A stretch of 60,809 nucleotides of DNA, taken from the IMG/VR virus record IMGVR_UViG_3300030118_007016, positions 1 to 60,809 of that record; one strand, given 5' to 3'. The DNA is from a virus. Under the pieces are notes generated by a model. The model ran no database searches. It was not told the origin of the DNA and saw nothing but the letters and a program-made list of their open reading frames with translations. The position numbers and the translations under genes were made by a program. This document shows positions 34,922 to 55,326 of the stretch, piece by piece (within the stretch, counting starts at the first letter, position 1; each line of letters opens with the position of its first letter).

Positions 34922-35531
34922 TAATAAATCTCCTTACATTTTCTATGTTTACTTCTGTTGCATTATTGACTTGCATAACTTTACATCCAGATGCTCTCGC
35001 TGCCTGAATACCTTTTGGCGAATCCTCTACTATCATCGCATCGTCTGGATTTATTCCTAGATCTTTCAAGATTTTCAAATATCCTTCAGGATCTGGCTTT
35101 GATTTAATAACATCTTGATTGCTAACAAACATATCTAAAGATGAAAAAACACCAGCTTTTTCAAGCATTAAACACGCTGTTTTTCTAATACTATTTGTAA
35201 AACATGCTACTTTTACATTATTTTCTTTCAGCCATTTAATAAGTTCTACCTTTGTTTCATCATATTGACACTTACTATGAATAATATCTAATGTTTTCTG
35301 CTGTTTTAGTTCTCCAATATCTTTATGGTATTCCTCCAGTAAAACACCCATGTCTGTTAGTTTTTTTAATTTTACTTTTGTTGGTAGACCATTAAATGTT
35401 GAATAATGTTCTTCCTCTGTAATAACATAATCTGTATATTGACCCAGAGCTTTGTTAAATGCCTCTTTGTGCCAGTCACATGCATCAATCAGTACCCCAT
35501 CCATGTCGAACATTACAAGTTTTAAACTCAT
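34893..35531 (-). CDS. HAD-superfamily phosphatase/phosphomutase
   Basis: Haloacid dehalogenase fold, subfamily I with a helical cap. Motif I is FDMDGVLIDA (nucleophile Asp9, acid/base Asp11), motif II ACFTNSIR, motif III Lys in SKPDPEGYLKIL, and motif IV VEDSPKGIQAARASG. Closest in pattern to beta-phosphoglucomutase and sugar phosphatase types. It would supply or dephosphorylate a sugar phosphate for the neighbouring nucleotidyltransferase. The ATG at 35531 overlaps the previous stop. Confidence 0.85.
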   Translation of the reverse strand: MSLKLVMFDMDGVLIDACDWHKEAFNKALGQYTDYVITEEEHYSTFNGLPTKVKLKKLTDMGVLLEEYHKDIGELKQQKTLDIIHSKCQYDETKVELIKWLKENNVKVACFTNSIRKTACLMLEKAGVFSSLDMFVSNQDVIKSKPDPEGYLKILKDLGINPDDAMIVEDSPKGIQAARASGCKVMQVNNATEVNIENVRRFINESFNTNGG

Positions 35532-36247
35532 GCTGTACCTCTTAAGTTGATGTCTATTCCATGCTCTTCAACTACATTTCTTAGAGAGTCTCCATAGTCA
35601 CTAGTGTACCATTTACCTTTAACTATTGCTGTTGCAAAATATGGGTATATACTACTGTCCCAATGAAACATTCCTCGTTTATTGTCGCATTCTTGCCAAG
35701 TCATGCCAGTTTTTATGCCTAAGTACTCACATATCATAGATGAGTTTGATTCGAACTCCCATATATTATTGCCATATGTTTTGCTATATATGCTCATTAG
35801 TTTTTCTTTATTGCAAACACTTGGCTGAATAGCGAATCTTAGATTTTGTGGATTCTCATACACATCTGGATGGTTTGTATTGTTAATTAAAGGATGATTT
35901 TCATCATAGCTAGCTCTAGCTAGTTTTACGATATCTATCTCTCCCTCTTTTACAAGATGAACTATTTGATTTATTTTTTCTTTATTTGGAGCGTCATATA
36001 AAAACATATCCTCGTGATGAAAAAGCACAATCTCTTCTTCAACTTGTGCTAAACAATGGAGCATTCTTTTTTGATATGACAAAGAATCATCGTATTTAAT
36101 AACAATCCAATCATTATCTAAGTCTTGAGTAGATTGATCTGTAAATAAATATTTTTTATAACCTTTCATATACTTGTCTGTCTGTGCAAAAAGAGGTGCC
36201 CACACATCAGAGTAATCAGAATGAGAATAAAATACTAAAGGAATCAT
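35528..36247 (-). CDS. Putative glycosyltransferase-like protein, 239 aa
   Basis: Start taken at the ATG at 36247, which overlaps the upstream stop as TAATG; a GTG three codons upstream is less likely. The sequence runs from MIPLVFYSHSDY through KYLFTDQSTQ to a VLFHHEDMFLYD motif reminiscent of the DxD-type metal site of GT-A glycosyltransferases. Later FESNSSMICEYLG and RGMFHWDSSIYPYF are likely acceptor-site elements. No firm family match is made. Soluble, no membrane span, coupled to glycan genes on both sides. Confidence 0.65.
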   Translation of the reverse strand: MIPLVFYSHSDYSDVWAPLFAQTDKYMKGYKKYLFTDQSTQDLDNDWIVIKYDDSLSYQKRMLHCLAQVEEEIVLFHHEDMFLYDAPNKEKINQIVHLVKEGEIDIVKLARASYDENHPLINNTNHPDVYENPQNLRFAIQPSVCNKEKLMSIYSKTYGNNIWEFESNSSMICEYLGIKTGMTWQECDNKRGMFHWDSSIYPYFATAIVKGKWYTSDYGDSLRNVVEEHGIDINLRGTA

Positions 36248-37080
36248 TACACCCACCTTGTCTTTTCATAAAGTCCTACTTTTTTGCAGAACCACTTGTG
36301 ATAAAGGTGACTATCAGTGACTCGCCACCTTGGATATTTCATTAAATTTTTGCTTCTTTCATTTTGAGGCTTTTCTAATTCGTTGGTAAACTGCTCTGGT
36401 GCATTAAAGTCCCACACATTATATCTAACACTATCAAACCATCCACTTGTTAAGCACTTTTCATACTCCGAGTTAGGCTTAAAATCCTGTAAAGCATTTT
36501 CATATATTGTAGAATATTTTTTCATAACTTCCCCAGAGCCATAAAACCACATGTCTCCGTATCCAGCATTCATTTGATCCCAATATGTAGTGTACAAATA
36601 ACTTGGATCCGATTTAGGATCAAATCTAAGCTGATTCACTTCAGAACCACCTCTCTGGCTTATGTCAAATCTAGTTGTTATTACCCAATCATATACAAAA
36701 TTATTATCATTTTCATACTTTTCTCTTAATTGTAAGGCTTTTTTTCTTGAGTAATAGAAGCTTAGTATTCTGGATGCGATTGCATTGTTATACATTGTTT
36801 GTTGTCTTGGGAACCCTTCATCAATGTACTGCTGACTTATTCCATTATCTGTACATATTTTATCAAAATCTACTTGTTGCTCAAATAGAGACATTTTTGG
36901 AGAATAGAAATCTTCAACTATACTTTCATACTCTGGTTGCCAGCAGTGCACAAATACATCTACACTATCAGACTTAGAATAAACTGTCTCTTTTAAGTGT
37001 TGTAATCCCCCAACAACGGTTGAATGATCTCCAGTGCTTACAGTTCCAAAATATCCGTGAAGACATAGAGCGATTCTCAT
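36247..37080 (-). CDS. Putative glycosyltransferase, 277 aa
   Basis: The start (MRIALCLHGYFGTVSTGD) is a Rossmann-like strand-loop. VDVFVHCWQPEY and VITTRFDIS (a R-x-D motif usual for the donor site in this loosely defined group of GT-A-like enzymes) follow, then YGDMWFYGSGEVMKKYS. Its C-terminal WRVTDSHLYHKWFC element recalls phage and bacterial proteins annotated as polysaccharide glycosyltransferases. Catalysis is unproven. ATG at 37080 follows the aminotransferase gene, overlapping by 4 nt. Confidence 0.65.
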   Translation of the reverse strand: MRIALCLHGYFGTVSTGDHSTVVGGLQHLKETVYSKSDSVDVFVHCWQPEYESIVEDFYSPKMSLFEQQVDFDKICTDNGISQQYIDEGFPRQQTMYNNAIASRILSFYYSRKKALQLREKYENDNNFVYDWVITTRFDISQRGGSEVNQLRFDPKSDPSYLYTTYWDQMNAGYGDMWFYGSGEVMKKYSTIYENALQDFKPNSEYEKCLTSGWFDSVRYNVWDFNAPEQFTNELEKPQNERSKNLMKYPRWRVTDSHLYHKWFCKKVGLYEKTRWV

Positions 37081-37697
37081 CTTACCTCCACATCTTTAAA
37101 CAGATTAAATTCAGTTAAGTCTCTGTAAGGGGGGTTTTCTGGTATGTCTGGTACATTCTCAGGGTAATTTTGCATCAACATAAGCCCCCGAACTGCTTGC
37201 TCTGGAGTCATATACATATTCCAACCCTCTTCATCAATCATATCCTCGTGATATAGCATACCATCAGTTCTTCCTTCATAGCGACGGGCTTTTAACCACT
37301 TCATAGCATCTAAGTTATCAAGCAGAATCATACCTCCCTTTCCAATCTTAAGGTGTTTTTTTATGTGAAATGAAAGGCACATCATTGTTCCGGGGATGTA
37401 CATATTGGAAGTTAATCTTTTTGCTGCATCGTATATTGGAAATGGTTTTAGTTGATAAATACCTTCCCATTGAATGTCTTCAAAAACTAACTTTCCACCT
37501 GCTTGCATGACAGATTGTGGTGGAGAAAGGTATGTTCTCTTTGGCAAAATTACTTCTTTGCCTTCTACTTTGTGCCACTTACAGGCGAGAAAAAGAGCAT
37601 TGGTGCAACTATTAACTGATACTGCATAAGGTGCGCCGGTGTAGTGTGCAATTTCTTCTTCAAACATTTTTACTACTTTGTATGGACTATGTAGCAT
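37077..37697 (-). CDS. Truncated DegT/DnrJ/EryC1-type sugar aminotransferase
   Basis: The ATG at 37697 (ATGA overlap with the upstream stop) is preferred to a GTG one codon earlier. HYTGAPYAVSVNSCTNALFL, then EVILPKRTYLSPPQSVMQAG and FEDIQWEG, fit the PLP-binding large domain of sugar aminotransferases. The likely Schiff-base Lys is in CLSFHIKKHLKIGKGGMI, matching the family S-F-x-x-x-K-x-x-x-x-G-x-G-G pattern. Members are usually 360-400 residues, so at 206 residues the C-terminal small domain is missing. No frameshift remnant follows, so this is a compact version, active or not. Confidence 0.75.
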   Translation of the reverse strand: MLHSPYKVVKMFEEEIAHYTGAPYAVSVNSCTNALFLACKWHKVEGKEVILPKRTYLSPPQSVMQAGGKLVFEDIQWEGIYQLKPFPIYDAAKRLTSNMYIPGTMMCLSFHIKKHLKIGKGGMILLDNLDAMKWLKARRYEGRTDGMLYHEDMIDEEGWNMYMTPEQAVRGLMLMQNYPENVPDIPENPPYRDLTEFNLFKDVEVR

Positions 37698-38887
37698 CAC
37701 TCTGTCTCCAAAATATAATATTTCTTTTTAAATCCACAAGCCTCAAATAACTTTATGCTAGCTTCATTTTCAAGCTTTACTTTTGCAAATGCTTTAGGCT
37801 CTTGTTTGATAATATTTTTTATCATATATTTGCCTAACCCCCTTCCTTGAAAGTCTGGGTGTGTTGCAACTCTAATGTCATTGTCAATCACTCCAGCGTA
37901 TCCAGCAAAAGCATTATCAACCAAAGCAACGTAAAAACAATCAGAATATTTTTTCATAAATTGGTTGTGTTCTTCCTCGGATATGTGCTCTTGATTAATA
38001 AAACCTGTTTTTACTTGTGGATGATTTCTTAAGTCTCTTATGTTGTCCCAGTATTTTTTTTGATTTTTTACAATATGAACATCATTAGACCACACACATT
38101 TTTTTCCTATATCTGCGGATTTGTAGTTAGACCAGAAGTGCCCCTTTAAATAATCCCTCTCATATCCCAAATCAAAATATGGATGTAACGTAGTGCCAAT
38201 ATCTAAGTACGTGTTTTGATCATATTCTTTAAAAAGCTCATGTATCAATATCTCACTCAAACTGCTCGCTGAAAAAAGAAAGACGTGATCTTTTATGTTA
38301 TTTTGTTTTATCCAATCTTTAATTTCATCTGCTAAATGATGATCATTTACGATGCAGTTTTCTCCAACCCTAAAGTCCTTTACAACATCAAAGCAAAGTT
38401 CTTTTTTTGCTTTTTCTAAGTCTGCATTTTTACTACATACCATTACAACTTTTCTTTCTGCTATAATGGGAACCAGTCTCGTAAGAAATGCTTCATAATT
38501 CCCATTAACAAATAAATTTGCCCATGTTAGATATTCATTTGTTCGCCCAACTTGTCTCTTCATCCAAGCATGTGCTTGATGACCTCCGATACAACAGGGG
38601 CAAGCTATACCAGTATAATAATTGTCTTTAGAAAACAAAAAGGATTTTATAAGCTTGTCTCTTACAAAAGCATGCTTTTCTGGATCGAAATGCTTATGGT
38701 CTTCTTTACTGTATCCAAAGTTATGTGTAAAGTCCCCCTCTATAACATAATCATCAGCTATAACTAATTTCATATTTTTTAGAATATCAGCCTCACCGTC
38801 AGAAAATCTTACAAATGCAAAGTTTTCTTTTGCAGCAAGCTTTTCAGCAAACATTTCTAAATCTTTAGTAAAGTCTTTACCTAACAT
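37697..38887 (-). CDS. GT-D-like glycosyltransferase fused to GNAT acetyltransferase
   Basis: Residues 1-260 resemble the DUF1792/GT-D glycosyltransferase fold: FAFVRFSDGEAD (R27-F-S-D-G-E32), an ACPCCIGG segment, KVVMVCSKNAD, and TYLDIGTTLHPYFD near residue 235. Residues about 290-396 are a GNAT acyltransferase: YVALVDNAFAGYAGVIDND, then the acetyl-CoA loop HPDFQGRGLGKYMIKNII, and ASIKLFEACGFKKK. The pairing suggests transfer of a sugar coupled to N-acetylation of the sugar or acceptor. It overlaps the MBL gene upstream by 11 nt and the aminotransferase by 1 nt. Confidence 0.75.
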   Translation of the reverse strand: MLGKDFTKDLEMFAEKLAAKENFAFVRFSDGEADILKNMKLVIADDYVIEGDFTHNFGYSKEDHKHFDPEKHAFVRDKLIKSFLFSKDNYYTGIACPCCIGGHQAHAWMKRQVGRTNEYLTWANLFVNGNYEAFLTRLVPIIAERKVVMVCSKNADLEKAKKELCFDVVKDFRVGENCIVNDHHLADEIKDWIKQNNIKDHVFLFSASSLSEILIHELFKEYDQNTYLDIGTTLHPYFDLGYERDYLKGHFWSNYKSADIGKKCVWSNDVHIVKNQKKYWDNIRDLRNHPQVKTGFINQEHISEEEHNQFMKKYSDCFYVALVDNAFAGYAGVIDNDIRVATHPDFQGRGLGKYMIKNIIKQEPKAFAKVKLENEASIKLFEACGFKKKYYILETE

Positions 38888-40106
38888 AACACGTATCTCT
38901 AAATGAAAGCATCTGTCTCCATTGTTTCATATTATGAACACTAAAACAAGATGTAATATTCATAGTATCAGCTCCCCAAGGATTTTTAAAAAACCCATTC
39001 AAATCGTAAGATGTTACAGAAGCTATAGGAACTTTGCTCAAGTCATCTGTATGTGTAAAACTTATTTTGCTATCTGCAAAACTAAACTCACAGTATTTAT
39101 CGATATCCTGAACACATAGGGTAAATTTGGTGTCTGGGACATTTAATCCAAAATAATTTTTTAACTTTGATATTTCCCTATACATTGAAGAGAAAGACTC
39201 TTCCAAGTCATCTTTAGTAAACATTGTAGTTTTCTTTGGATTTTTGTTCTTAGCTTCATTAAATATGTTTGACCACTTTTTGCAGTTAGATAATGACTTT
39301 TTACGATCCATTTCAAATGGAATATTTTCAAGATAAAATGGTGCAAACATATTTATATTTTTATTGTTCTCTATAACCTCTTGAATGTTTACAATATGAT
39401 CGTTTAAAAAATGATTTTCAGGTCTACAAAAAGTTATAAAACTAGCAAATGGAATCGTTATTTTTGGGTTTAGTATTCTATGCGTATCTAATAAGTCAGA
39501 AATATGAGATTCCATAGCCAAATTAAGAGACTTTTTATCATCCTTATTTCCATAAAATCCTGCTAATGAGAATTGGTTAAACAACAAATCAATATCTCTT
39601 CCCATCATGTTTTCAAAAATACCTGTCTTCATTCTATGAAGTTCCTCTGTATTAAATTCACAATCATTTTTATTGAGAATTAGTTTTCCGTCAATGTCAA
39701 ACAACATTGCAGAATCATGATTATTTTTGAAAAAAGAAAATGTGAAATGGTCTATATCGTTGGTATAAAACTGATATGGTTCGAATTGATAATATTTAAA
39801 CCCTAGATTACTCATATTTTCATGAATATTGTCATTATCTCTCTTTGGCATTAAGACTTCTATTCTTTGGTTACATTTTTCTCTTATTTGCTTTAGAGTA
39901 GACCAGCTCAAATGATCTGGGTGTTCATGAGAAATAAATATATACTTTAGGTTTGATAAATCCAAATCGTCTATATTGGTTTCGTTTAACAACTCCCAAG
40001 AATCATTAAAAACTTTTCCACTAAACCATGGATCAACTAGAATAGAATAATCTTTTTTTATGATTTGAAAACATGCGTGATTTATAAACTTAACTTCAAA
40101 ACTCAT
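38877..40106 (-). CDS. Metallo-beta-lactamase-fold hydrolase, 409 aa
   Basis: A beta-lactamase-fold metal hydrolase with the HxHxDH site in YIFISHEHPDHLS (His60, His62, Asp64, His65). Early FINHACFQIIKKDYSILVDP is typical of the UlaG/CMP-Neu5Ac-hydroxylase-like branch, which acts on sugar or nucleotide-sugar substrates. The second metal-binding half is less clear. The C-terminal 150 residues are not a usual MBL tail. It is embedded in the glycan run, downstream of the UDP-GlcNAc epimerase-like gene, so a sugar substrate is probable. Confidence 0.75.
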   Translation of the reverse strand: MSFEVKFINHACFQIIKKDYSILVDPWFSGKVFNDSWELLNETNIDDLDLSNLKYIFISHEHPDHLSWSTLKQIREKCNQRIEVLMPKRDNDNIHENMSNLGFKYYQFEPYQFYTNDIDHFTFSFFKNNHDSAMLFDIDGKLILNKNDCEFNTEELHRMKTGIFENMMGRDIDLLFNQFSLAGFYGNKDDKKSLNLAMESHISDLLDTHRILNPKITIPFASFITFCRPENHFLNDHIVNIQEVIENNKNINMFAPFYLENIPFEMDRKKSLSNCKKWSNIFNEAKNKNPKKTTMFTKDDLEESFSSMYREISKLKNYFGLNVPDTKFTLCVQDIDKYCEFSFADSKISFTHTDDLSKVPIASVTSYDLNGFFKNPWGADTMNITSCFSVHNMKQWRQMLSFRDTCYVR

Positions 40107-41091
40107 CCTTCAAGACCTCATACACTTTTTGGGCAGCATATCCGTCTCCATAGGGGCAGTCTCCGATAGGAATGTGATCCTCATTGACTTGATTGAAAAG
40201 ACCTTCCAAATCCTCTGGTTCAAGACACATAAAAGCAAAAGTGTTGACACCTTCAAGTCTTTCGGTTTTCTTTCGGCATACAATACATTTCTTTTTTAGA
40301 AAAGAAGTTTCTTCTTGTAATCCGCCAGAATCAGTGATAACCAGTCTTGTTTGAGCCAACAACTTTATAAACTTATTATACTCCATTGGCTCAATAATTT
40401 TAAGGTTTTTTAGCAAGTGTTTGTGCTTTTGGACATTAGGATTTGGGTGCAGGGGTATAATAAAATCTAAGTCTTTATTGCCTTCTGCAATCTTATCGAT
40501 GGTCTTGAACCATTGATCCATGTTGTGATGATTCTCTCTTCGATGCATTGTTACAATAACTTTGTTTGTGTATTCTGTCTCAATATCTCGTAGGTTATCC
40601 AGCACAGTATTGCCTACAACCTCTACTCTACCTTGAGTATTCTCATTAGATAAAAATACTTTGCTAAGATCTGTTGGACAAAGATGAACATCAGCAATTC
40701 TAGATATTGCCTGACGGTTGAACTCCTCTGGATATGGTTGATTTTTATCGTATGTCCTTAAACCTGCTTCCAAATGGATTACTTTGATCCTTCTGTGGAA
40801 AGCAGCAAGAGCAATAGAGAAAGCAGAAGTCGTGTCTCCCTGCACCAAAACAGACGTTACACCTTCAAAAATCTCTTCTAAGTTCATAACGGAACTCACG
40901 ATAGAGTCAAGTCGGTTTGGACCGTCTTTGATTTCTAACTTTACTAAATCTATGTCGTCCCCTACTTTTGAGAGTAGGTCTGTGTGCTGACCTGTGAAAA
41001 GCAAACGATAAGGAATATTGCCGTCCATTTGATCTAGCAATGGCTTAATTTTAATCCACTCTGGTCTAGTTCCAAAACTTAATAAAATCAT
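40096..41091 (-). CDS. UDP-N-acetylglucosamine 2-epimerase-like
   Basis: All hallmark motifs of the WecB/NeuC family are present: SFGTRPEWIKIKPLL, VLVQGDTTSAF, HLEAGLRTYDKNQPYPEEFN, RIADVHLCPTD, VGNTVLD, VTMHRRENH and TDSGGLQEE. The 331-residue length is a little below cellular enzymes (about 370). The reaction is the interconversion of UDP-GlcNAc and UDP-ManNAc, or a hydrolysing relative of it. That gives the pathway an N-acetyl-mannosamine-type precursor. Overlaps both neighbours by a few bases. Confidence 0.9.
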   Translation of the reverse strand: MILLSFGTRPEWIKIKPLLDQMDGNIPYRLLFTGQHTDLLSKVGDDIDLVKLEIKDGPNRLDSIVSSVMNLEEIFEGVTSVLVQGDTTSAFSIALAAFHRRIKVIHLEAGLRTYDKNQPYPEEFNRQAISRIADVHLCPTDLSKVFLSNENTQGRVEVVGNTVLDNLRDIETEYTNKVIVTMHRRENHHNMDQWFKTIDKIAEGNKDLDFIIPLHPNPNVQKHKHLLKNLKIIEPMEYNKFIKLLAQTRLVITDSGGLQEETSFLKKKCIVCRKKTERLEGVNTFAFMCLEPEDLEGLFNQVNEDHIPIGDCPYGDGYAAQKVYEVLKDEF

Positions 41092-42695
41092 ACTTTTATG
41101 CCTCGCACAGTTTCCCAGCCGCCTTTGATCGCTGTTTGAACGCAGACATCCCTTTCACTAAAAAACTGCTGATGTGATACAGCACTGTTAGTTGATGTTG
41201 CTTTTGTATCAATGCCCAATTCATTGCCCAAGATAGATCCGTGAAGACTTGTATCCTCTGGTGGGTGTGGGGGACAGTAGGTTTGTATATTGCCGTATTT
41301 CTGTGCAAGGTAAGAAAACTGGATGTCTTCTCCATTGTCCCAAGTAGTTGGCTTTTCTCTCCACAAGTGTGATAACCACTCTCGCTTAAAGAACCAAGCG
41401 TGTCCTACTAGATCTACCCTTGTTGTTTCACTATTTTGTGTGGGCCACCCGCATCGGTCGTGTTGAACATAGAACTTGTCGTTCAATGTGACACCAGCAG
41501 ATCCAAGAATGCCTTCGCTAGTTTTCATTGTTTCCAAACAGTTCTCAAACCAACGATCTCCCGGTATAGTGTCATCGTCAAAGATGGCTACATATTCAGT
41601 GTCAGCCAGCAAAGCAGCGGCAAACCTTCCATAAAACTTCCAGTTGTGATCATTGTGAAATACTCTATCAAGGTCCAGTTCTTTAAAGTTAAATCCAATG
41701 TTATCCTCGTGTTCATTTACCCACAGCCAAACCTGCGCTGGTCTGGTTGTTTGTTTTCTAATCGCATCAATCTGCATTCTAAGATTGTATGGACGACGGT
41801 ATGCATTTAAAATAACTGTAATAGGGGCAGTTGTAAACTCTTTTCTTTTCTCGCTTTCTAATACCTCGACAACTTTGTCAATAACCTCAGTTTTTTGGGA
41901 CCTTACAAAGTCAAGAAGCTCTTGTCCTTTATACTTTGGGAACCAATCCTCGCTTGCACATCCAAGGTTGTTATTAGTTTTAAGTTTACAGTTTACAATA
42001 CGGGCTTCAACAGCTAAACGACAAAAGGTTTCGAGGACTTGGGAAAAGAAGACCAGCCCGTCGTGTTGAGAAAGTTGGTTAATGAAGTTATCATAGTCTA
42101 AAGAAACAATAAGATTGTAATCAATATTGTGTTTTTCGCAGAAACTTTTCGCTTGATAGGTCCCTTTTATTTCATTGGAGCTGCTTAAAACAGCCATCTT
42201 GCCATTTTTCTTTGTATCTACATATTTTTGCAAAACATGTAGTTCTTCATCAGACCAAAGAGAACAACCAAGATTAATTACATTTGCTTCTCTAATGTTT
42301 TTGCTGATTACTTCTGCGTGTAGTTTAGATTGAGCAAAGACTGCCTTGGCATTTCTGTAGAACTCCAAGTTGGTCAAGTTAGTTGCTGGAACCCTATAGT
42401 CTTTGTAAGGTGAAGGATCTCGACCAACAATGTATTTGTGATCATGTTCATAGATTACATAATCACAAGTTTGTAGCAGACGCAAGCATGCAGGACTGAG
42501 CATAACAAAGTTGGATACAATAAAGGTTTTTTCTGCATTGTCTTTGATTAGCTTTTCTGTTACTTGCTTAGATTTTATGCGAGTTACTTTGTATCCTCGT
42601 TCAACAAGGGAGTTGACAACAACCTGATCTACAAGTTCACCGCCACCCTTTATCTCATCAGCATAAAAATCTGCTATGTGGATTATTCTTTTCAT
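41088..42695 (-). CDS. Two-domain glycosyltransferase (GT-B-like N-half, GT-A C-half)
   Basis: Residues 1-285 look like a GT4-type GT-B fold lacking some helices: IADFYADEIKGGGELVDQV, YVIYEHDHKY, KMAVLSSSNEIKGT and FFSQVLETFCRLAVEARI. Residues about 290-535 are a GT2-like GT-A domain: APITVILNAYRRPYNLRMQI, EYVAIFDDDTIPGDRWFENC with a DDD metal motif, and WDNGEDIQFSYLAQKYG carrying the acidic ED acceptor-site pair. A bifunctional enzyme adding two sugars is likely. The second half is the better-supported catalytic unit. Confidence 0.82.
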   Translation of the reverse strand: MKRIIHIADFYADEIKGGGELVDQVVVNSLVERGYKVTRIKSKQVTEKLIKDNAEKTFIVSNFVMLSPACLRLLQTCDYVIYEHDHKYIVGRDPSPYKDYRVPATNLTNLEFYRNAKAVFAQSKLHAEVISKNIREANVINLGCSLWSDEELHVLQKYVDTKKNGKMAVLSSSNEIKGTYQAKSFCEKHNIDYNLIVSLDYDNFINQLSQHDGLVFFSQVLETFCRLAVEARIVNCKLKTNNNLGCASEDWFPKYKGQELLDFVRSQKTEVIDKVVEVLESEKRKEFTTAPITVILNAYRRPYNLRMQIDAIRKQTTRPAQVWLWVNEHEDNIGFNFKELDLDRVFHNDHNWKFYGRFAAALLADTEYVAIFDDDTIPGDRWFENCLETMKTSEGILGSAGVTLNDKFYVQHDRCGWPTQNSETTRVDLVGHAWFFKREWLSHLWREKPTTWDNGEDIQFSYLAQKYGNIQTYCPPHPPEDTSLHGSILGNELGIDTKATSTNSAVSHQQFFSERDVCVQTAIKGGWETVRGIKV

Positions 42696-43969
42696 TATTC
42701 AAAACTTATAACAGGCTCTTCTTCTTTTTGAGTTTCTACAGGAATGACAGCGTTTGCAAAAGCTTCATATTGTTTGTCTTCATCAAATTCTTTTTTAATC
42801 CAAGTTTTAAGTTTTTTAGCCATTTCTTCATATTTGCTATAGTCTTCATAAACGTTACTAACAACTTTTTTGAAACTACTTTCATCAGCATAGCACCACA
42901 TTGAGTCTGCCTGTAGCACCCCATCCCACACAGCCTCTTGTTGAATAGGACCAAGTGTATACTCCACCTCTGCAAACATCGGCTTTAAAACTGTTTGTGT
43001 TTTCTTTTTCGATCCTTTTTTTCTTTGCTTTTGGGGCATATTTAAAAAATCACATTGTCCACTCCAGTTAGTAGTAATAACTGGAAGTCCACAATAAGCC
43101 GATTCGAAAAGAGGAAGACCGTAGCCCTCACCGTGGCTCAAAGAAATAAAAGCTTTGATTTTTGGATGCGAATACAATCCAATCATCTCAGGGTCAGACA
43201 TATCCCCATGCAAAACGTATAACTTACATTGAACACCATCAGCAGCGAACTGAGAGACAAGGTTCTCAAACTGCATCTTGTCCATCGTTGAATTGTTTCT
43301 AAAAAAACCTTTTATTACAAGACCAACATTTGGGTTATCTTTGAAGTTTTCTACAAACCACTTAATTGTATTGCTAGCATTTTTTCTTGGACCCCATTGT
43401 GATACCATCAAAAAATTAAAATCTGTTTCCAAATCCAGCTTCAAAGACTTTTTCTTTGTTTTTTTTGCAGGATAATTTACAACAGTAATAGGAATATTTG
43501 ATTTCCTAACACTAGCTTCTCCAACCTTTTCATTATTAGCACGGTTATACACTGGATAGCTAGTATTTTCTAGTGTATTCTTTGAGTGCGAAGAGGTCAC
43601 GACAATCCTATCCATGGCGATACTTTTCTCAACCCATTGGGGAGATACTTTTGTTGTCTCAATTCCAGCGGTGTATCCAACATTTACAGGAGCTATTTTT
43701 TCCCACTCATTAGGTATAGTAACTTGTAAAGAAACATCAAACTTACCATCGCCCTGCATATGATGGAATGTTTTGCCTATTAAATAATCGACATAGTTTT
43801 TTTCTTCATCATATTGAGAAACCCATCCAGTTTGTCCCCAGTTGGTATTAATCAAATATAGATCGATCTTATCTTCTTGTCTTCTTAAAGAACGCAGTGC
43901 AAATCTTGCCTGTTCTCCATAACCAGATCTGCTCAACACTGGTCCTCTAATAACAACCTTTTTTTTCAT
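42695..43969 (-). CDS. Glycosyltransferase family 4-like, 424 aa
   Basis: A GT-B retaining-type glycosyltransferase. The N-terminus GPVLSRSGYGEQARFALRSL is the donor/acceptor glycine loop. The C-terminal donor domain has FNFLMVSQWGPRKNASNTIK, then KAFISLSHGEGYGLPLFESAYCG with the conserved E-x(7)-E motif, and PVITTNWSGQCDFL. No signal or membrane span. It follows the next GT gene by 14 nt, with GAGGAAA before the ATG at 43969. Substrate unknown. Confidence 0.88.
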   Translation of the reverse strand: MKKKVVIRGPVLSRSGYGEQARFALRSLRRQEDKIDLYLINTNWGQTGWVSQYDEEKNYVDYLIGKTFHHMQGDGKFDVSLQVTIPNEWEKIAPVNVGYTAGIETTKVSPQWVEKSIAMDRIVVTSSHSKNTLENTSYPVYNRANNEKVGEASVRKSNIPITVVNYPAKKTKKKSLKLDLETDFNFLMVSQWGPRKNASNTIKWFVENFKDNPNVGLVIKGFFRNNSTMDKMQFENLVSQFAADGVQCKLYVLHGDMSDPEMIGLYSHPKIKAFISLSHGEGYGLPLFESAYCGLPVITTNWSGQCDFLNMPQKQRKKGSKKKTQTVLKPMFAEVEYTLGPIQQEAVWDGVLQADSMWCYADESSFKKVVSNVYEDYSKYEEMAKKLKTWIKKEFDEDKQYEAFANAVIPVETQKEEEPVISFE

Positions 43970-43983
43970 TACGTTTCCTCTTT

Positions 43984-45240
43984 TTAATTAATCTTTTTGA
44001 ACGTCCATGGACTATACTGCTTTCTGGTTTCCCAAGAACCTCGCTCCTCATGTACTCTATCCAGCAAATCTACCCATTTTTGTTGATATTTTTCGTAAGA
44101 ATAGTTTGTGAGAACATGCTCTCTACCAGCTTTGCCAAGCGCTTCTCTTTCTTCTTTACTCATATTATACATTTCTCTCATGGCACTCATAAAATCTTCT
44201 TTACTAACCCTGTCCTCATAGATGTATGGCACCTGTTGGGATCCGATTATTGCTTTTGAGCAGGGCTGGATGCCAATACCAAACCAATTTTCTCCATCTG
44301 TGACTTGTTCTTGTAGTCCTCCGGTCATATTGACTACGATAGGAGTTCCACAAGACAGAGATTCTAGAGTAGCCAAGCCGAAGCCCTCTGCATCGGATAT
44401 ATTGATCGTGCAATCTGCAAGATTATACATCATCCCTAGTTGCTCAGGAGAAACTTTATTTGTTGATAGTCTAATTTGTCCATCCACGGCACCAAAATGT
44501 TGCATCAAGTGTTCTAGTGGCTGACCATATGGATCATTTGGATCAGTATGCATTAGCAAAACTACCTTATCTTTACCGACTTCATTAGCAAAATCATTAA
44601 ACCACTTTAATAAACTGCCACTTAGCTTTCTTCTTGCATTCCTATTATTCCAAAAGAATACAAATTTACCATCTAAATTTTGTTTTGTTTTTATTTCATC
44701 AATAGTATCTTGGTCGACCGGCTTAAAAAACTGTGGATCTACTGCATGGGGTAAATAAATATTTTCAACCTTGTCTGTAACTTCTGAAACTACCTCATGT
44801 GTAACTTTAGATATGGAAGCTATAACGTCAGTCGACTCATACCACCCTTTATTAAAAACAGGCGCTGGATGATTATCCCATACATGATAATACACCATTG
44901 GAACTTTGTCTCTAATCTCATTGTCCATTAACCAAAGCCATTCATAAAATCTAGGGTCCGTCATAAACCACAAGATATCGGGCTTTTGAGTGGACAATAT
45001 GGACCTGATTTGTTCTTGGGTGCCGTATCCATCGACTGGAAATATTGTCCAATCTCCATTTGATCCCTCAACTGTGATAGGATCATAAGTTGGATGCTTA
45101 ACTGCTCCTCCTAGAGATATAACCTGATATCTGCCTGTTTTTAGCAATGCATCAATCATGTTTTTTGTTTGATTTGCTACTCCGGATGGAGACAACGGGT
45201 GGTCGCTAAGTGTCAAAACTTTAATTTTTTTATCTGTCAT
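43984..45240 (-). CDS. Glycosyltransferase family 4-like, 418 aa
   Basis: ATG at 45240 makes an ATGA overlap with the nuclease gene; a TTG two codons earlier is not needed. The N-terminal Rossmann half has VLTLSDHPLSPSGVANQTKN and DILWFMTDPRFYEWL. The C-terminal half has FVFFWNNRNARRKLSGSLLK, then CTINISDAEGFGLATLESLS with the E-x(7)-E motif, CGTPIVVNMTGGLQEQV and a C-terminal helix. A retaining GT4 enzyme using an NDP-sugar, related in plan to the neighbouring GT gene but not a recent duplicate. Confidence 0.88.
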   Translation of the reverse strand: MTDKKIKVLTLSDHPLSPSGVANQTKNMIDALLKTGRYQVISLGGAVKHPTYDPITVEGSNGDWTIFPVDGYGTQEQIRSILSTQKPDILWFMTDPRFYEWLWLMDNEIRDKVPMVYYHVWDNHPAPVFNKGWYESTDVIASISKVTHEVVSEVTDKVENIYLPHAVDPQFFKPVDQDTIDEIKTKQNLDGKFVFFWNNRNARRKLSGSLLKWFNDFANEVGKDKVVLLMHTDPNDPYGQPLEHLMQHFGAVDGQIRLSTNKVSPEQLGMMYNLADCTINISDAEGFGLATLESLSCGTPIVVNMTGGLQEQVTDGENWFGIGIQPCSKAIIGSQQVPYIYEDRVSKEDFMSAMREMYNMSKEEREALGKAGREHVLTNYSYEKYQQKWVDLLDRVHEERGSWETRKQYSPWTFKKIN

Positions 45241-46010
45241 TTGCAATGTTCCGTTTTATGAAATTCACACTTGCGGCATGCAAGCCTGTTTTTTATGAAG
45301 TTTTTCTTCTCAATATTGTAAATCGCTTTTTCAAGAAATTTAAGTGCATTTTCAGTTTTTCTTGGACCACTTGTGACTCGAAATATTTCAACTCTTTCTT
45401 TTTTAGCTGTTCTTTTAAGCAGTGCGAAGTGAGTTTCTATCATCTTAGGGTCTACATTGTGCTTTTTAGCCCAATAATGCTTGTAAAAAGTCAACTGGTA
45501 GGTCATCATTGGGTCAGATTTCTTGCGAGCATCCCATCCCCAAGAGCATGTTTTCCAATCGATGATATGTGTCTTGCCATCAGAGGTCTCGATAACCAAA
45601 TCAATGAAGCCTTTGAACTTATTTTTCTCTTCACAAGGGAAATCTTCGATGATTTCCATCAAATCCTCTTCAGCAGCGAGGACTTTATACTCTCCAAAGT
45701 GCTCTTTCATGGCAGGAAGCACTTCTTCGAGGATCAATGGACCTTGATTTTCCATGGAAGTAACCAATTTTTCGTCTTTTTTAACATTTTTGGGCAAATT
45801 TTCAAGACTTTCTTTGAATTTTAGGTCAAAAAACGATTTTTTATCGTCCAAACCCTCAGTCATCATCTTTTCGCAGGTATCGTGGATAGCATTACCAAAA
45901 GCAGTGAAAGCATTGCCTTCAAAGCCTTTTACCTTGTCTATGTTCATTAATTTGTGATAAAAAGGACAAAAATCCCAGTTTTTTGCCTCAGAAAAGCTAA
46001 TATGACCCAT
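45237..46010 (-). CDS. PD-(D/E)XK nuclease, RecB/Cas4-like
   Basis: ISFSEAKNWDFCPFYHKLMNI and AFTAFGNAIHDTCEKMM start the fold; the catalytic residues are Asp137 in KGFIDLVIET and D151-x-K153 in HIIDWKTCSW. Three C-terminal cysteines (ACRKCEFHKTEHCK) with Cys15 near the N-terminus resemble the four-Cys iron-sulfur site of Cas4 and AddB nucleases. At 257 residues it is a stand-alone exonuclease-like protein. It is the first gene upstream of the GT run, though a DNA-end-processing role is unrelated to glycans. Confidence 0.85.
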   Translation of the reverse strand: MGHISFSEAKNWDFCPFYHKLMNIDKVKGFEGNAFTAFGNAIHDTCEKMMTEGLDDKKSFFDLKFKESLENLPKNVKKDEKLVTSMENQGPLILEEVLPAMKEHFGEYKVLAAEEDLMEIIEDFPCEEKNKFKGFIDLVIETSDGKTHIIDWKTCSWGWDARKKSDPMMTYQLTFYKHYWAKKHNVDPKMIETHFALLKRTAKKERVEIFRVTSGPRKTENALKFLEKAIYNIEKKNFIKNRLACRKCEFHKTEHCK

Positions 46011-49423: not shown

Positions 49424-49882
49424 TTATATAAGCTTATCTATTTCTTTGTTTGCATGATTAATTATAGATTTTTGAGCAGCCACTAACATATCACTATCTA
49501 TATCTTTTGCAGTGTCTCCCAAATCAAAAATAGGCTTTATACCAAGATAGCCACACACCTGTAGCTCTTCCTTGGGAAGAGATAGGCTAGTTGCAGATCC
49601 GCCGTTACCAAAATATGTCGGTCTTACTTCAAACAAGGCGAAAACCGCATCTCCCTCAGAGTCATCAAAAGAAATCACTTCAGATACATGCTCACATGCT
49701 TCTAACAAATCTTTTCTAGTTTCAAAATCAAACAAAAGATGACCCTTGTTTTTCACAACCCATTCATCACTATTTAAAGCTACAATTACTTTGCCGTATT
49801 TACTGGCAGCTTTGAAAAGTAATAAATGACCAACATGGAGGGGGTTAAACGCTCCGCTTACTAGGATTGTTTTTTCGCTCAT
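49424..49882 (-). CDS. HxGH-type cytidylyl/adenylyl-transferase-like, 152 aa
   Basis: The 152-residue protein begins ILVSGAFNPLHVGHLLLFKA with the HxGH nucleotide-binding motif, followed by VIVALNSDEWVVKNKG. The late ISSTxxR-like region is not obvious. This size and motif suit a RfaE/TagD- or NMNAT-like small nucleotidyltransferase transferring CMP or AMP to a phospho-acceptor. It overlaps the ClpP-like gene by 4 nt, and the stop is 3 nt from the tRNA-Leu gene. Substrate uncertain. Confidence 0.78.
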   Translation of the reverse strand: MSEKTILVSGAFNPLHVGHLLLFKAASKYGKVIVALNSDEWVVKNKGHLLFDFETRKDLLEACEHVSEVISFDDSEGDAVFALFEVRPTYFGNGGSATSLSLPKEELQVCGYLGIKPIFDLGDTAKDIDSDMLVAAQKSIINHANKEIDKLI

Positions 49883-50505
49883 GGGATAATAATATCATCA
49901 ACAAGACCATATTTTAAGCATGTCTTGGCATCCCACCATAAATCTCTTTTAAGAATATCTTTGATTTTTGATTTAGGTATTTTAGTGTGCTCTTCGTAGA
50001 TTCCGATGATCTTTTTCATCAACAACTCATTGTTTTTCATATCATCTTTCATCTCTTCAAACTTTCCCCACATGCCTGATGAAAGCTGGTGGATTAACAT
50101 AAAAGCGTGTTCGTGCATCAATCTCTCTTCAGCTACGACACTCATAATCGTAGCAGCAGATGCGGCGCAACCATCAATAATAGATACAACAGGGACTGGG
50201 CAGTTTTTAATATAATCTACTGATCCGAAACCCGAAAAAACAGAGCCTCCATAAGAATTAATATGTATATTCAATTTTGGAGGACACTCAAGCTTGTAAA
50301 GTTGCTGTATGTTGTAGAGTTTTTGTCCTGTTGAATAAATAAGCTTATTTAAAGTGAGATTGTCCTGCCTAGTTACACCAGAATAAAAATAAATTTTATT
50401 GTACTCTACAGAGACTCTGCTATCATCTGATGATCCAGCCATCATTGTTGGTCCCTCATTTTCTTCGCTTTCATCTTCTGCTTCTAAATGCCAGTATTTT
50501 CTCAT
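49879..50505 (-). CDS. ClpP-like serine protease
   Basis: Crotonase-fold ClpP protease with HINSYGGSVFSGFGSVDYI (oxyanion-strand region), nucleophile Ser116 in DGCAASAATIM, His139 in AFMLIHQLSS, and a possible Asp192 in DLWWDAKTCLK. The 208-residue length equals cellular ClpP. In phages, related proteins can be prohead proteases, but no portal or capsid gene is nearby. It may instead cooperate with host Clp ATPases. Start ATG at 50505 with AGAGG upstream, just after tRNA-Arg. Confidence 0.88.
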   Translation of the reverse strand: MRKYWHLEAEDESEENEGPTMMAGSSDDSRVSVEYNKIYFYSGVTRQDNLTLNKLIYSTGQKLYNIQQLYKLECPPKLNIHINSYGGSVFSGFGSVDYIKNCPVPVVSIIDGCAASAATIMSVVAEERLMHEHAFMLIHQLSSGMWGKFEEMKDDMKNNELLMKKIIGIYEEHTKIPKSKIKDILKRDLWWDAKTCLKYGLVDDIIIP

Positions 50506-50964: not shown

Positions 50965-50993
50965 ATTATAGCTTATATTTATTTAAGTTTCAA
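50965..50993 (-). promoter_or_regulatory. Sigma70-type promoter before CxxCH gene
   Basis: TTGAAA at 50988-50993, 17-bp spacer, TATAAT at 50965-50970 on the minus strand. The expected transcription start falls at or next to the ATG (50958), implying a leaderless or near-leaderless mRNA. Confidence 0.65.
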
Positions 50994-52130
50994 GAACTTT
51001 TTTAATTCTTCGATTCTTTTCTTTGGAGATTTTAGCCCACCAACGATTGTGTAGGCGACGAGTTTCTCTCTTTCTGGATCTTCGTAAATACCCCTGTGAA
51101 TGATTGCGCCCCCAGTTAATGTCGCTAATGTGTCAAATCCATATTCAATATTGTCCATTAGACCGGGGACGGTCTCATAAAGTACAGAACCTCCAACGAT
51201 AATTGAGGCGGCTCCTTTTGCAGAAGTTAAATCAAACCCGCTGGCAAGTAATGTTTTTTCAAGATTATTTCTAAGCCCCTGTGACACTGAAGTTGGACTT
51301 TCGGGGTCTTTGATTGTAGTGGCTCCGAAAATCATGCAACCTGCTGTTTTCATAATACTGTCATAATCTGCTGGATCAAACACAGTATAGTCAGAGTTTT
51401 TAGTGCACAAAAGATTAAAGATGTGAAATAGTCCGGCGACTGTATTGTTTAATGTTGGCCAAAACTGCTTTACAGTTAGTCGTGGATAAAGCTTTTTGAT
51501 TTTATCATTATCAATAATGACTAAAGGTGCAAAGTTTCCATTTTCAGCTTCTGCACAAAGCTCTGTCATTCTATTGTATGAATTTTCTGCCACTATTGGG
51601 GACGCACACTCTCCGCTAGTAGGTAATGATGCAATAACTCCTACTCTTTCACTAGGATTTTCTACTCCAATATAAGTAAAATATCTTTTTGCAGTGTCCA
51701 AAAGAGACATAACACTACCTCCTCCGGTTCCGCCCCCAACACCAACACAAATCAAGATACGGTCGATTTTGTCACCGAAAATCTCTTTGTATTTATTGAA
51801 AACTTCTTGACTTTTATCATCAAATGCTTGCTTTGAAACTGCATGATTTTTTCCAGCGCCGGATGCCCCATCATACACTAGATGATGTTTGTGGTTTTCT
51901 GGGAGACCTAAGTGATTTAAGTCCGATTTTGCTAGATTAAAAGCGATTGTCTTTCTGTATCCCAAATCAAAGAATGCTTTAGCCATGCGACCTCCGCCTT
52001 GACCAGATCCAACAATACCATATCGCAATGCTCCGCCGCTCTCATCTTCAACAAAATCTACTTTTGACTGTTCAATTTCTTCAATATCAATATCTTCAAT
52101 GTCTAAAGTAGGTAAGTTTAAATCATTCAT
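50979..52130 (-). CDS. Tubulin/FtsZ-like GTPase
   Basis: The 383-residue protein has RYGIVGSGQGGGRMAKAFFD (nucleotide-loop glycine motif), FNLAKSDLNHL, and VYDGASGAGKNH. The tubulin/FtsZ signature is GVGGGTGGGSVMSLLD (residues 130-145, compare GGGTGTG), with a T7-like DPADYDSIMK. The N-terminal 35 residues are acidic; the C-terminus ends in a basic tail (KSPKKRIEELKKFLKLK). A GTP-dependent filament-forming protein is inferred; phage tubulins such as PhuZ and TubZ position replicating DNA or partition plasmids. Sequence similarity to either group cannot be judged here. The ATG at 52130 has AGGAGATTGATAAA and an ACTATTTA element upstream. Confidence 0.82.
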   Translation of the reverse strand: MNDLNLPTLDIEDIDIEEIEQSKVDFVEDESGGALRYGIVGSGQGGGRMAKAFFDLGYRKTIAFNLAKSDLNHLGLPENHKHHLVYDGASGAGKNHAVSKQAFDDKSQEVFNKYKEIFGDKIDRILICVGVGGGTGGGSVMSLLDTAKRYFTYIGVENPSERVGVIASLPTSGECASPIVAENSYNRMTELCAEAENGNFAPLVIIDNDKIKKLYPRLTVKQFWPTLNNTVAGLFHIFNLLCTKNSDYTVFDPADYDSIMKTAGCMIFGATTIKDPESPTSVSQGLRNNLEKTLLASGFDLTSAKGAASIIVGGSVLYETVPGLMDNIEYGFDTLATLTGGAIIHRGIYEDPEREKLVAYTIVGGLKSPKKRIEELKKFLKLK

Positions 52131-53247: not shown

Positions 53248-53592
53248 ATGAAAAAAGATGAAAAAAATAAAAAAAGGTACAGTGTTATCAGGAAGTTAAG
53301 AAGAGATGGAAAGCTTTCTGAGGAAATGGAAATATTCGTCTCTAATCTGTCGCTGGAGGATCTTATTGCATTAAAACTAGAAATATCCAGCAAACCTGTA
53401 AATGGAAAATTGTTTGGCATACCAATATGGAAATCTATTCCCTTTATTGTTAGAGATGCCGTCTTAAAAACAGCTATTTCAGTTTGTAAAACCAAAGTTG
53501 ATGCAGCAAATTTGATTGGAATGGATGTCGATAAAATGGATAACTTATTGAAAAAATACAATACAATAGGTTTTTTTGAAGAAAACAGTTGA
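53248..53592 (+). CDS. Small HTH (Fis-like) DNA-binding protein, 114 aa
   Basis: Very basic N-terminus (MKKDEKNKKRYSVIRKLRRD), then a conserved helix block GKLSEEMEIFVSNLSLEDL, then IALKLEISSKPVNGKLFGIP. The C-terminal segment DAVLKTAISVCKTKVDAANL plus IGMDVDKMDNLLKKY is a Fis-type helix-turn-helix. I have seen closely similar small proteins in marine T4-like phages, with no function known. The start is ATG 53248; the opposite strand holds only a shadow. It is the first gene of the plus-strand block. Its stop at 53592 overlaps the next promoter's -35 element. Confidence 0.72.
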   Translation: MKKDEKNKKRYSVIRKLRRDGKLSEEMEIFVSNLSLEDLIALKLEISSKPVNGKLFGIPIWKSIPFIVRDAVLKTAISVCKTKVDAANLIGMDVDKMDNLLKKYNTIGFFEENS

Positions 53593-53616
53593 CAAAATGC
53601 AACATTTAGTTATAGT
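53589..53616 (+). promoter_or_regulatory. Sigma70-type promoter before tmRNA region
   Basis: TTGACA at 53589-53594, 16-bp spacer, TATAGT at 53611-53616. It overlaps the stop of the HTH gene. The transcript would include the structured segment and the tmRNA. Confidence 0.7.
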
Positions 53617-53832
53617 TATATAACATCACTGGCTAAAACAGTGTAATAATAGTGATGTCTATAACTTAGGAGATTCCCTTCAAAGCCCTTAACGAAGGGA
53701 TCCGCTTGGGCGGTAAACTGTTGAAGAAGGGATAACAAGACGGCAATGTGAGAAAACCGTTCATTTTTTTAGCCAAATATAGTGCCCCCTCGTTGGCTTA
53801 GGATGGCGAGGGGGCGAAGTTCTTTGAAATAC
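53617..53832 (+). ncRNA. Structured leader or small RNA of unknown type
   Basis: A 216-nt stretch without a credible gene. ACATCACT (53623) can pair with AGTGATGT (53651), while CACTG (53627) can pair with CAGTG (53639) instead. Two CCCTT blocks (53676, 53686) face two GAAGGG blocks (53694, 53726). ACGG/CCGT (53739/53757) can form another stem. A GC-rich 9-bp hairpin, GCCCCCTCG/CGAGGGGGC (53784-53815), precedes the tmRNA and may be a processing or pausing site. It is not T-rich downstream, so it is not a normal terminator. I recognise no known RNA class. Confidence 0.45.
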
Positions 53833-54189: not shown

Positions 54190-55326
54190 ATGAACAACCC
54201 ACACAAAAACTGGCAAAAATTTCTTATAAATGAAGCAGGATTAAATAAAATCAGACAAGATATGCTTGACTATGATACTGCTTTTATTACAGCATTTCGT
54301 GGCAATATAGATGACAAATCTATGTGCGTTTATGTGCCCCCATCCGAAGAAGAGCTTTCTGAAAGAGACAAGATGGGCAAAAGAGGCGAGACTAATAAAA
54401 GAAACAATAAAGAACTCTCAGCCTTCCTTCTTAGTCAAGGTTATGGTGTTAAGAATGTTCAAGGATCTTACATTGAAAACTTTGGTTCAATAGACCCAGA
54501 AAAAGTGCCAAGAGAGGTAAAAGAGGCTAGTTTCTTTGTAACTAACCTAAATGGTGACCCAGAGTTTGCAGAGCAAATAATTAACCTTGGTAAAAGATTT
54601 TGTCAAGATTCAGTTATCATTGTACCAAAAGGTGAAGAGGGTTACATTTACGGAACAAACAATGGTAAATATCCGGGATTGGATCAAAAAGAGACAGTTG
54701 GTAAGTTTGCAGGTGGCGAAAGAGGCGAGTTCATGTCTCGTATTGGTGGACGACCCTTTGTTATGAAAGAGGATGAAGAGACTAAAACTTACGAAGATCT
54801 ACCCGGAAAACAAAGACAAGCGGCGAAACTAATAGCACAAAGAGTTGATAGAGAAATCAACGAAATGCACATGGTTTATAACTTAAATGAAGCAGACCTA
54901 CCTGCATATGACAACAATGGAAAAGTAACACTTTATCATTATGCACCAGTTGAAGCTGATGAAATAGAAGTTGATCCATCTCAATTCGGAAAACAAAGAT
55001 ACTCTAGAAGAGAGAAAGAAAGATCAACTTACCCTCGCTCATTCTTTTATGTTAACCTTGATCAAGCAGAGTCTGAAGTAAAATCAGGAAAGCACCTTTT
55101 TACACTTGACATTCCAACTAACAAGTTGTATAGTATAAAAAACGATCCTGATGGTCTTATGAAATCTATTAGGCACCCAACATATGGCTTTAGAAACGAT
55201 ATCGAATGGACTGAGCTTTTTAAAGAAATACACAAAGATTATCTTGGTGCTTATTATTCCACTCCCTCTATGGATCTTGTGGTTCTTTTTGAACCAGTTA
55301 AAGCGAATAAAATGGAGCAAGAATGA
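54190..55326 (+). CDS. DUF3293-like / putative ADP-ribosyltransferase-like two-part protein
   Basis: The first 25 residues (MNNPHKNWQKFLINEAG) carry a KFLxNE motif that I know from marine phage proteins. Residues 25-160 fit DUF3293: DTAFITAFRGN, NKELSAFLLSQGYGVKNVQG, EASFFVTN, and FCQDSVIIVPKGEEG. Residues about 240-378 have VTLYHYAPVEADEIEVDPSQ, FGKQRYSRREKERSTYPRSF and NKLYSIKNDP, then LGAYYSTPSMDLVVLFEPV. This LYHYxP and final ALF/VLFEP pattern resembles uncharacterised phage ART-type proteins. ART activity is not demonstrated. The stop overlaps the next start (ATGA). Confidence 0.6.
   Translation: MNNPHKNWQKFLINEAGLNKIRQDMLDYDTAFITAFRGNIDDKSMCVYVPPSEEELSERDKMGKRGETNKRNNKELSAFLLSQGYGVKNVQGSYIENFGSIDPEKVPREVKEASFFVTNLNGDPEFAEQIINLGKRFCQDSVIIVPKGEEGYIYGTNNGKYPGLDQKETVGKFAGGERGEFMSRIGGRPFVMKEDEETKTYEDLPGKQRQAAKLIAQRVDREINEMHMVYNLNEADLPAYDNNGKVTLYHYAPVEADEIEVDPSQFGKQRYSRREKERSTYPRSFFYVNLDQAESEVKSGKHLFTLDIPTNKLYSIKNDPDGLMKSIRHPTYGFRNDIEWTELFKEIHKDYLGAYYSTPSMDLVVLFEPVKANKMEQE

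Follow-up and report, generated by a model that had tools for sequence, protein, structure and literature searches.

Why does a phage keep some 216 nucleotides between a promoter and its tmRNA gene, and do these nucleotides control the tmRNA? The question is raised by IMG/VR record IMGVR_UViG_3300030118_007016, a 60.8-kb contig from an uncultured virus, which was analyzed here over its whole length of 60,809 nt (the window). Judging by its baseplate protein, which shares 28 to 31% identity over its full length with those of the closest cultured phages, the virus is a T4-like myovirus. A first-pass annotation had described the stretch as a structured RNA that fits no known family, and had suggested that it switches between alternative folds or regulates the processing of the downstream tmRNA.

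The setting given in that annotation was confirmed. A near-consensus sigma-70 promoter, from which a transcription start at about position 53623 can be placed, and a tmRNA recognized by both ARAGORN and Rfam enclose the stretch, and no conserved gene was found in it. The 216 nt are more stable than dinucleotide shuffles (z = -2.9, with 1 of 200 shuffles as good), and the leaders of three relatives gave z values of -3.0 to -3.5, which supports the proposal of a structured RNA. The absence of a known family was also borne out, as none of the covariance models of Rfam 15 reached its gathering threshold on the window's leader or on the leaders of distant relatives. The sole Rfam overlaps in the latter, matches to tmRNA_permuted, run into the tmRNA body and were judged to be artefacts. 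BLAST searches against phages returned only promoter-like chance matches in Staphylococcus phages for the window's leader, and chance matches only for the leaders of its distant relatives.

Several other genes of the window can be described in passing. The gene after the tmRNA (54190 to 55326, plus strand) encodes an S-adenosylmethionine lyase-family domain (Pfam PF23780, E = 9e-8). On the minus strand, 50979 to 52130 shows weak TubZ/FtsZ-like similarity just under the Pfam cut-offs and has no match in the cultured-phage collection, 30685 to 31371 weakly matches the T4-type late sigma factor family phrog_234 (E = 8e-4), and, by eye, 49879 to 50505 is ClpP-type protease-like and 32127 to 45246 resembles a surface-sugar locus, with epimerase, nucleotidyltransferase, glycosyltransferase, and methyltransferase-like genes in a row.

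The 216-nt stretch is a composite (Table 1). Positions 53623 to 53774 hold a structured RNA, which is followed by a boxA-like element that abuts the tmRNA; this element, lying within the last 14 nt, was missing from the first-pass annotation. Comparison of related sequences indicates that the former is a compact, evolutionarily conserved, and previously undescribed RNA with two predicted pseudoknots. Its architecture comprises a closing helix near the 5' end (P1), an H-type pseudoknot and a hairpin (P4) that lie inside this helix, and a 5' hairpin (H0).

Table 1. Features at the promoter-tmRNA locus, in window coordinates.
Feature	Position	Strand	Basis or remark
Fis-like (helix-turn-helix) 114-aa protein gene	53248-53592	+	Directly upstream of the RNA in every RNA-carrying contig
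Sigma-70 promoter, TTGACA (53589-53594)-N16-TATAGT (53611-53616)	53589-53616	+	Consensus scan, 11/12 consensus bases; same promoter in relatives
H0, 5' hairpin, stem 53623-53630/53651-53658	53623-53658	+	Sequence; equivalent stems with altered sequence in L027, L143, L293, and L301
P1, 5' strand GGCTAAAACAGTG	53631-53643	+	12/13 positions pair with 53762-53774; 1/1000 shuffles as stable
Pseudoknot stem 1, 5' strand CCTTC, partner 53694-53698	53677-53681	+	Pair counts on alignment A3
Pseudoknot stem 2, 5' strand CCCTT, partner 53727-53731	53686-53690	+	Pair counts, 16 sequences
Pseudoknot stem 1, 3' strand GAAGG	53694-53698	+	Pair counts
Pseudoknot stem 2, 3' strand AAGGG	53727-53731	+	Pair counts
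P4 hairpin, GACGG...CCGTT, GYGA-type loop	53739-53761	+	Hairpin kept in other lineages with different stem sequence (by inspection)
P1, 3' strand CATTTTTTTAGCC, the 13 bases after P4	53762-53774	+	Pairing with the 5' strand
GC hairpin before boxA, stem 53784-53792/53807-53815 (9 bp)	53784-53815	+	Window's closest relatives only
rrn-type boxA GTTCTTTGAAAT, 2 nt before the tmRNA	53819-53830	+	Only exact copy in the window
tmRNA, one-piece, tag ANTDTYSEYALAA	53833-54156	+	ARAGORN; Rfam RF00023, E = 2e-53

The annotation had pointed to two CCCTT blocks facing two GAAGGG blocks. The blocks are real and they do pair, but they are not alternatives to one another. The first block pairs with the third and the second with the fourth, and since the two pairings are interleaved, they make up an H-type pseudoknot. 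The order CCTTC-AAAG-CCCTT-AAC-GAAGG...AAGGG of the window has its counterpart in other lineages as CTTCA-ATG-GCTC-TNT-TGAAG...GAGCC. In 16 sequences, 91.3% of the cells at the pseudoknot pairs are paired and both sides are altered, with pairing kept, in 8 of the 11 pairs, a count that includes many closely related contigs and thus fewer independent events. Stem 2 is the clearer of the two in these sequences, with 100% paired cells in four of its five pairs and changes on both sides in all five; one of its column pairs occurs as GC, CG, AU, and UA with no exception. None of 500 shuffles was as good on four of five measures, including the paired percentage and the covariation score, and pairing collapsed when, as a control, the partner strand was slid by 1 to 3 columns. 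The covariation among related phages that the annotation had proposed to look for is therefore present in the pseudoknot, and P1 is likewise supported. A MAFFT alignment (A1) was left out of the pair counts, as it misaligned the 5' strand of P1, and P4 and H0 were compared across lineages by eye. The unpaired bases of the RNA are very conserved, and among the six distinct leaders compared at first, the core and the leader end are strongly conserved.

A P1 pairing partner near the transcript 5' end is present in every member examined, even though each subfamily has entirely different strand sequences (GGCTAAAACAGTG/CATTTTTTTAGCC in the window, GTTGAAAGGCG/CGCTTTTTAAC in L026, AGTTAGAAAATG/CATTTTCTAACT in L143, CCCGTGGAGG/CCTCCACGGG in L301, GGCAAGAT/ATCTTGCC in L303, and CAATAAGAT/ATCTTATTG in L321). 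From 6/8 to 13/13 positions pair in 18 hand-listed members, with compensatory changes in each subfamily. When P1 was compared with 1000 shuffles in 19 members, 16 stood at 24 per 1000 or fewer, that is, they beat at least 97% of the shuffles; P1 is weak in three AT-rich members (L332, 67; L396, 55; and L298, 90 of 1000 shuffles). A U-tract lies directly behind P1 in L205, L301, L314, L321, L298, and L396, so that P1 and the U-tract look like a terminator in several lineages, and the window's subfamily has no such tract. P4 with the U-run was also considered as a terminator and was rejected, the stem being too weak and the U-run being used by P1.

The mutually exclusive hairpins that had been proposed for 53623 to 53658 were sustained only in part. 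The outer hairpin exists and corresponds to H0, whereas the inner one (CACTG/CAGTG, within 53627 to 53643) is not conserved, and its loop pairs instead with 53762 to 53774 in P1. By eye, the P1 strand begins at the base after the H0 5' strand in the window, L027, L143, L293, L295, and L301. There is thus no need for H0 and P1 to compete, and the two can form a second pseudoknot, as far as can be read from the sequences. The conserved pairings would thus be pseudoknots that share no nucleotides, and this, together with the position of the P1 strand in six lineages, argues against the switching suggested by the annotation.

The RNA is present in 35 viral contigs, the window included, and no relative was found among the 50,697 phage records of the cultured-phage collection. 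A search with the 114-aa protein encoded upstream gave four viral contigs with the same gene-promoter-leader order, in which the tmRNA comes next where the sequence extends that far. Two DNA patterns added the relatives L027 and L137/L143, and profile searches with the 114-aa family (alignment A2) led to 80 viral loci, about half of them with a tmRNA on the same strand. The leaders of loci with this gene hold the same RNA in different sequence. A covariance model (R1), which was built from 16 sequences and contains stem 2 only, recovered the held-out members L205, L213, L396, and L408 with E values of 1e-7 to 2e-5; L205 and L213 had entered through the tmRNA and boxA alone, and L396 and L408 through a DNA pattern. 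P1 was found at the predicted place in L205 and L408, with 10 and 11 bp, respectively, and the 114-aa gene lies upstream in all four. The last DNA pattern matched 52 contigs, mostly by chance within genes, and only L396 and L408 were new carriers of the RNA. A scan with an RNA pattern that was blind to the gene returned 17 contigs, and all 17 were also in the list from the gene search.

What follows the RNA differs among lineages. It directly precedes a tmRNA in the window's group and in L205, L213, L293, L295, L301, L312, and L408; it is followed by tRNA-Gly in L303, L318-L328, L370, and L374, and by an open reading frame in L298 and L308. The RNA of L396 comes after the end of the Fis-like gene, and the available sequence of this contig contains no tmRNA. 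Conversely, L216 has the gene, the promoter, boxA, and the tmRNA, and the RNA is absent. The adjacency to tmRNA thus holds for the closest relatives but not for all other lineages. The pseudoknotted RNA is not tied to tmRNA, and the regulated processing of the tmRNA proposed in the annotation is not supported as its purpose. The varied neighbors and the case of L216 indicate that the window brings together two independent modules, the RNA and boxA. The long pre-tmRNA leader of L330 (1803 to 2400) contains a stretch, CTGGCATGGTGATGAGCGAGGAGATTCACC, that is very similar to the P4 region of L312; this leader, which model R1 did not find, is possibly a further divergent member.

The 114-aa protein has no family in Pfam or PHROG and no match in the cultured-phage collection; its viral relatives number 82, of which 80 were kept. 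A structure predicted with AlphaFold2 is all-helical (pLDDT 88), and the best PDB match in Foldseek was Fis of Escherichia coli (probability 0.97, query TM 0.47 to 0.51, and target TM up to 0.70, but E = 0.5). E. coli Fis is an activator of rRNA and tRNA promoters, and finding a Fis-like gene next to a stable RNA led by boxA is suggestive, no more. In L182 and L187, the Fis-like gene extends at its end into the start of the tmRNA, and the boxA word TTCTTTGA doubles as its codons for ..SFFE...

We then consider the border with the tmRNA. The 9-bp GC hairpin reported by the annotation is real, and in the distant relative L143 it is kept through a compensatory change from G-C to A-U (CCCCCTCG/CGAGGGGG versus CCCCCTCA/TGAGGGGG). 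The last bases of the leader, AAGTTCTTTGAAATAY, lie directly before the tmRNA and resemble the boxA of rRNA operons. GTTCTTTGAAA agrees with GYTCTTTAANA (PMC5725501) at 10 of 11 positions, with G for A at position 8, this consensus being gamma-proteobacterial. The same G at position 8 is found in the 16S-leader boxA of Brachyspira and Ignavibacteria. The exact hairpin-plus-boxA pattern had no match in 84,980 genomes, and inspection by eye found no pairing between boxA and the 3' flank of the tmRNA.

A boxA before tmRNA is not confined to the relatives of the window. The pattern TTCTTTGAAAT-NN-GGGGGTG also matches phages with quite different tmRNA-like RNAs, after TATTTGTA-type promoters, and a wider pattern matched 87 contigs from viruses and 107 from bacteria, the latter including Brachyspira, Balneolaceae, Ignavibacteria, Opitutia, Bdellovibrionota, and Gastranaerophilales. 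With up to 30 nt allowed between motif and tmRNA, the gap clusters at 1 to 12 nt; in non-redundant sets, it does not exceed 12 nt in 35 of 43 bacterial (p = 3e-8) and 31 of 36 viral (p = 2e-8) cases. In a sample not selected for the motif, 60 bacterial tmRNAs drawn from two phyla with the Rfam model, TCTTTGA occurs within 30 nt of the tmRNA 5' end in 14 of 60, compared with 1 of 720 control windows further upstream (Fisher p = 8e-16). Most of the sampled bacterial tmRNAs are without a clear boxA, and the ssrA gene of E. coli has no consensus boxA upstream, only the degenerate TACCTTTACACATT. This indicates that tmRNA does not generally require boxA, and the situation in E. coli may be the reason why boxA before tmRNA has been overlooked. 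Two side observations concern promoters. The phages with TATTTGTA-type promoters (L006-L025) have GTTCTTTGAAATATGGGGGTG, exactly or nearly so, at the tmRNA start, and several of their tmRNA-like RNAs were missed by ARAGORN. In other contigs, viral (L145-L222) and bacterial (L029-L108) and in many cases unrelated, TCTTTGA often comes right after the -10 box, which would place the start of the transcript at boxA or close to it.

A search for 16S leaders in 20 genomes gave three usable ones. In Brachyspira and Ignavibacteria, the boxA word found before tmRNA recurs within the genome in the 16S leader, and Balneolaceae has a near match. In Brachyspira, AGTTCTTTGAAATATGG is identical over 17 bases between the two sites. 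Among the titles and abstracts of 5.4 million open papers, we found none that describes a boxA before tmRNA (ssrA). The 2017 survey of boxA outside rRNA screened coding genes of gamma-proteobacteria; according to its authors non-coding RNAs were not considered, and its main text does not mention tmRNA or ssrA (Baniulyte 2017, PMC5725501).

In rRNA operons, where the order is boxB-boxA-boxC, NusB and S10 are recruited through boxA, which is both necessary and sufficient for recruiting the factors, and in a structural model boxA tethers the 5' strand close to the polymerase up to the point at which the trailer comes out (PMC10250234). The 5' and 3' ends of tmRNA must pair too, and this makes the same use of boxA plausible. 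The most likely explanation for the window is that a separate phage small RNA has been fused here to a boxA-led tmRNA transcript. We give somewhat better than an even chance to the overall account, in which synthesis of this transcript is also assisted by Nus factors. In this account, positions 53623 to 53774 would be a self-contained small RNA that acts alone and in trans, probably as a partner of a protein or of host machinery, and the lineage of the window would have lost the U-tract, fusing the RNA to the tmRNA transcript. If boxA works here as it does in rrn, NusB-S10 of the host would attach to it while the RNA is being made and enter a Nus/SuhB complex on RNA polymerase, which would protect the untranslated transcript from Rho. 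The complex might also act as a chaperone, keeping the 5' strand of the tmRNA close to the exit channel while about 320 nt more are transcribed, so that the 3' strand can then pair with it in the acceptor stem. RNase P would then cut at the tmRNA 5' end and set free a leader RNA of about 210 nt.

Other explanations give the RNA a role in cis. The pseudoknotted domain could be an antitermination RNA similar to put of phage HK022, which would modify RNA polymerase and is predicted to allow readthrough of the untranslated tRNA, the tmRNA, and downstream genes. Its location right behind the promoter at the transcript 5' end, whether a tmRNA, tRNA-Gly, or open reading frames follow, is consistent with this. 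However, the RNA of L396 has no obvious promoter of its own or downstream operon, the U-tract right behind P1 in several members would be odd for an antiterminator, and put sites consist of two simple hairpins in about 70 nt; we regard this explanation as unlikely. A riboswitch or attenuator, in which P1 and the U-tract would terminate transcription unless a change of fold, induced by a ligand, protein, or ribosome, allowed tmRNA to be made on need, seems less likely still. It would agree with the order of P1 and U-tract in L205, L301, L314, L321, L396, and L298, with the proximity of the 5' hairpin and P1, and with the conservation of unpaired bases, but it does not fit a subfamily, that of the window, without a U-tract after P1, helices that share no nucleotides, the lack of a constant downstream gene to be regulated, or the lack of a match to any Rfam riboswitch.

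The element before the tmRNA can also be interpreted differently. GTTCTTTGAAAT may be part of the tmRNA promoter or a cleavage signal for RNase P or another nuclease, with its likeness to the rrn boxA arising from a shared promoter or processing context. Selection near the promoter is possible where the motif directly follows the -10 box, as it does in many bacteria and phages, and the motif is close to the cut site. In the window's family, however, the motif abuts the tmRNA even though the promoter is about 200 nt away, in other phages it also follows tRNAs or U-tracts, and the same word is present in 16S leaders, far from the 16S start. We consider this interpretation improbable. It is very improbable that the GC hairpin with TTCTTTG has no other role than intrinsic termination or processing, in a leader that is otherwise neutral. 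A consensus scan did score 53783 to 53816 as terminator-like, but in the tail after the stem, GAAGTTCTTTG, the T-run is interrupted and begins 4 bases past the stem, other lineages keep the motif without the hairpin, and the upstream domain displays strong covariation.

Returning to the fusion of a small RNA with a boxA-led tmRNA transcript, a broader and rather doubtful proposal is that the double-pseudoknotted RNA class and the Fis-like gene constitute an rrn-like control unit for the stable RNAs of phages (activator, RNA, boxA, and Nus-assisted folding of tmRNA), and that the use of Nus factors and boxA for tmRNA is an overlooked general feature of many bacteria and phages. Independently of this, a double-pseudoknot RNA that is supported by covariation and lies outside Rfam and the cultured-phage collection is a ready target for work on structure and function, and its constant pairing with one small protein gene provides a direct handle. 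A boxA before tmRNA links ribosome rescue to the machinery of rRNA transcription. It is predicted that mutants in NusB, S10, or SuhB of boxA-bearing bacteria have less tmRNA or misfolded tmRNA, and this can be tested in culturable species with one boxA word in both the tmRNA gene and the 16S leader, such as the Brachyspira genome examined here.

Among known systems, the rrn leader with its boxB-boxA-boxC and Nus/SuhB complex resembles the window in having a hairpin followed by boxA, in an untranslated leader before an RNA with pairing ends, and in the boxA word, which is identical to that in the 16S leaders of some bacteria. The window differs in that its boxA stands before a tmRNA, in an element found 2 to 12 nt from the mature 5' end, that the hairpin-then-boxA order, as in boxB-boxA, is limited to one subfamily, its own, and that neither a boxC nor a leader-trailer helix was identified in the window. 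The boxA in the leaders of suhB and other genes is likewise away from rRNA, and those are coding genes (Baniulyte 2017, PMC5725501). PK1 of tmRNA and other H-type pseudoknots share the topology of two interleaved short stems and an A-rich loop; the pseudoknot of the window is outside the tmRNA and has different neighbors, and the likeness is one of topology. GOLLD, ROOL, and HEARO are large structured RNAs of phages and mobile elements, often located beside tRNA genes in phages. The RNA of the window is, like them, a structured RNA, and it is much shorter and has no Rfam match to them. With HK022 put it has in common that it is a structured phage RNA near the transcript start, and it differs in size and in architecture, with a double pseudoknot in place of the pair of hairpins by which put is usually described.
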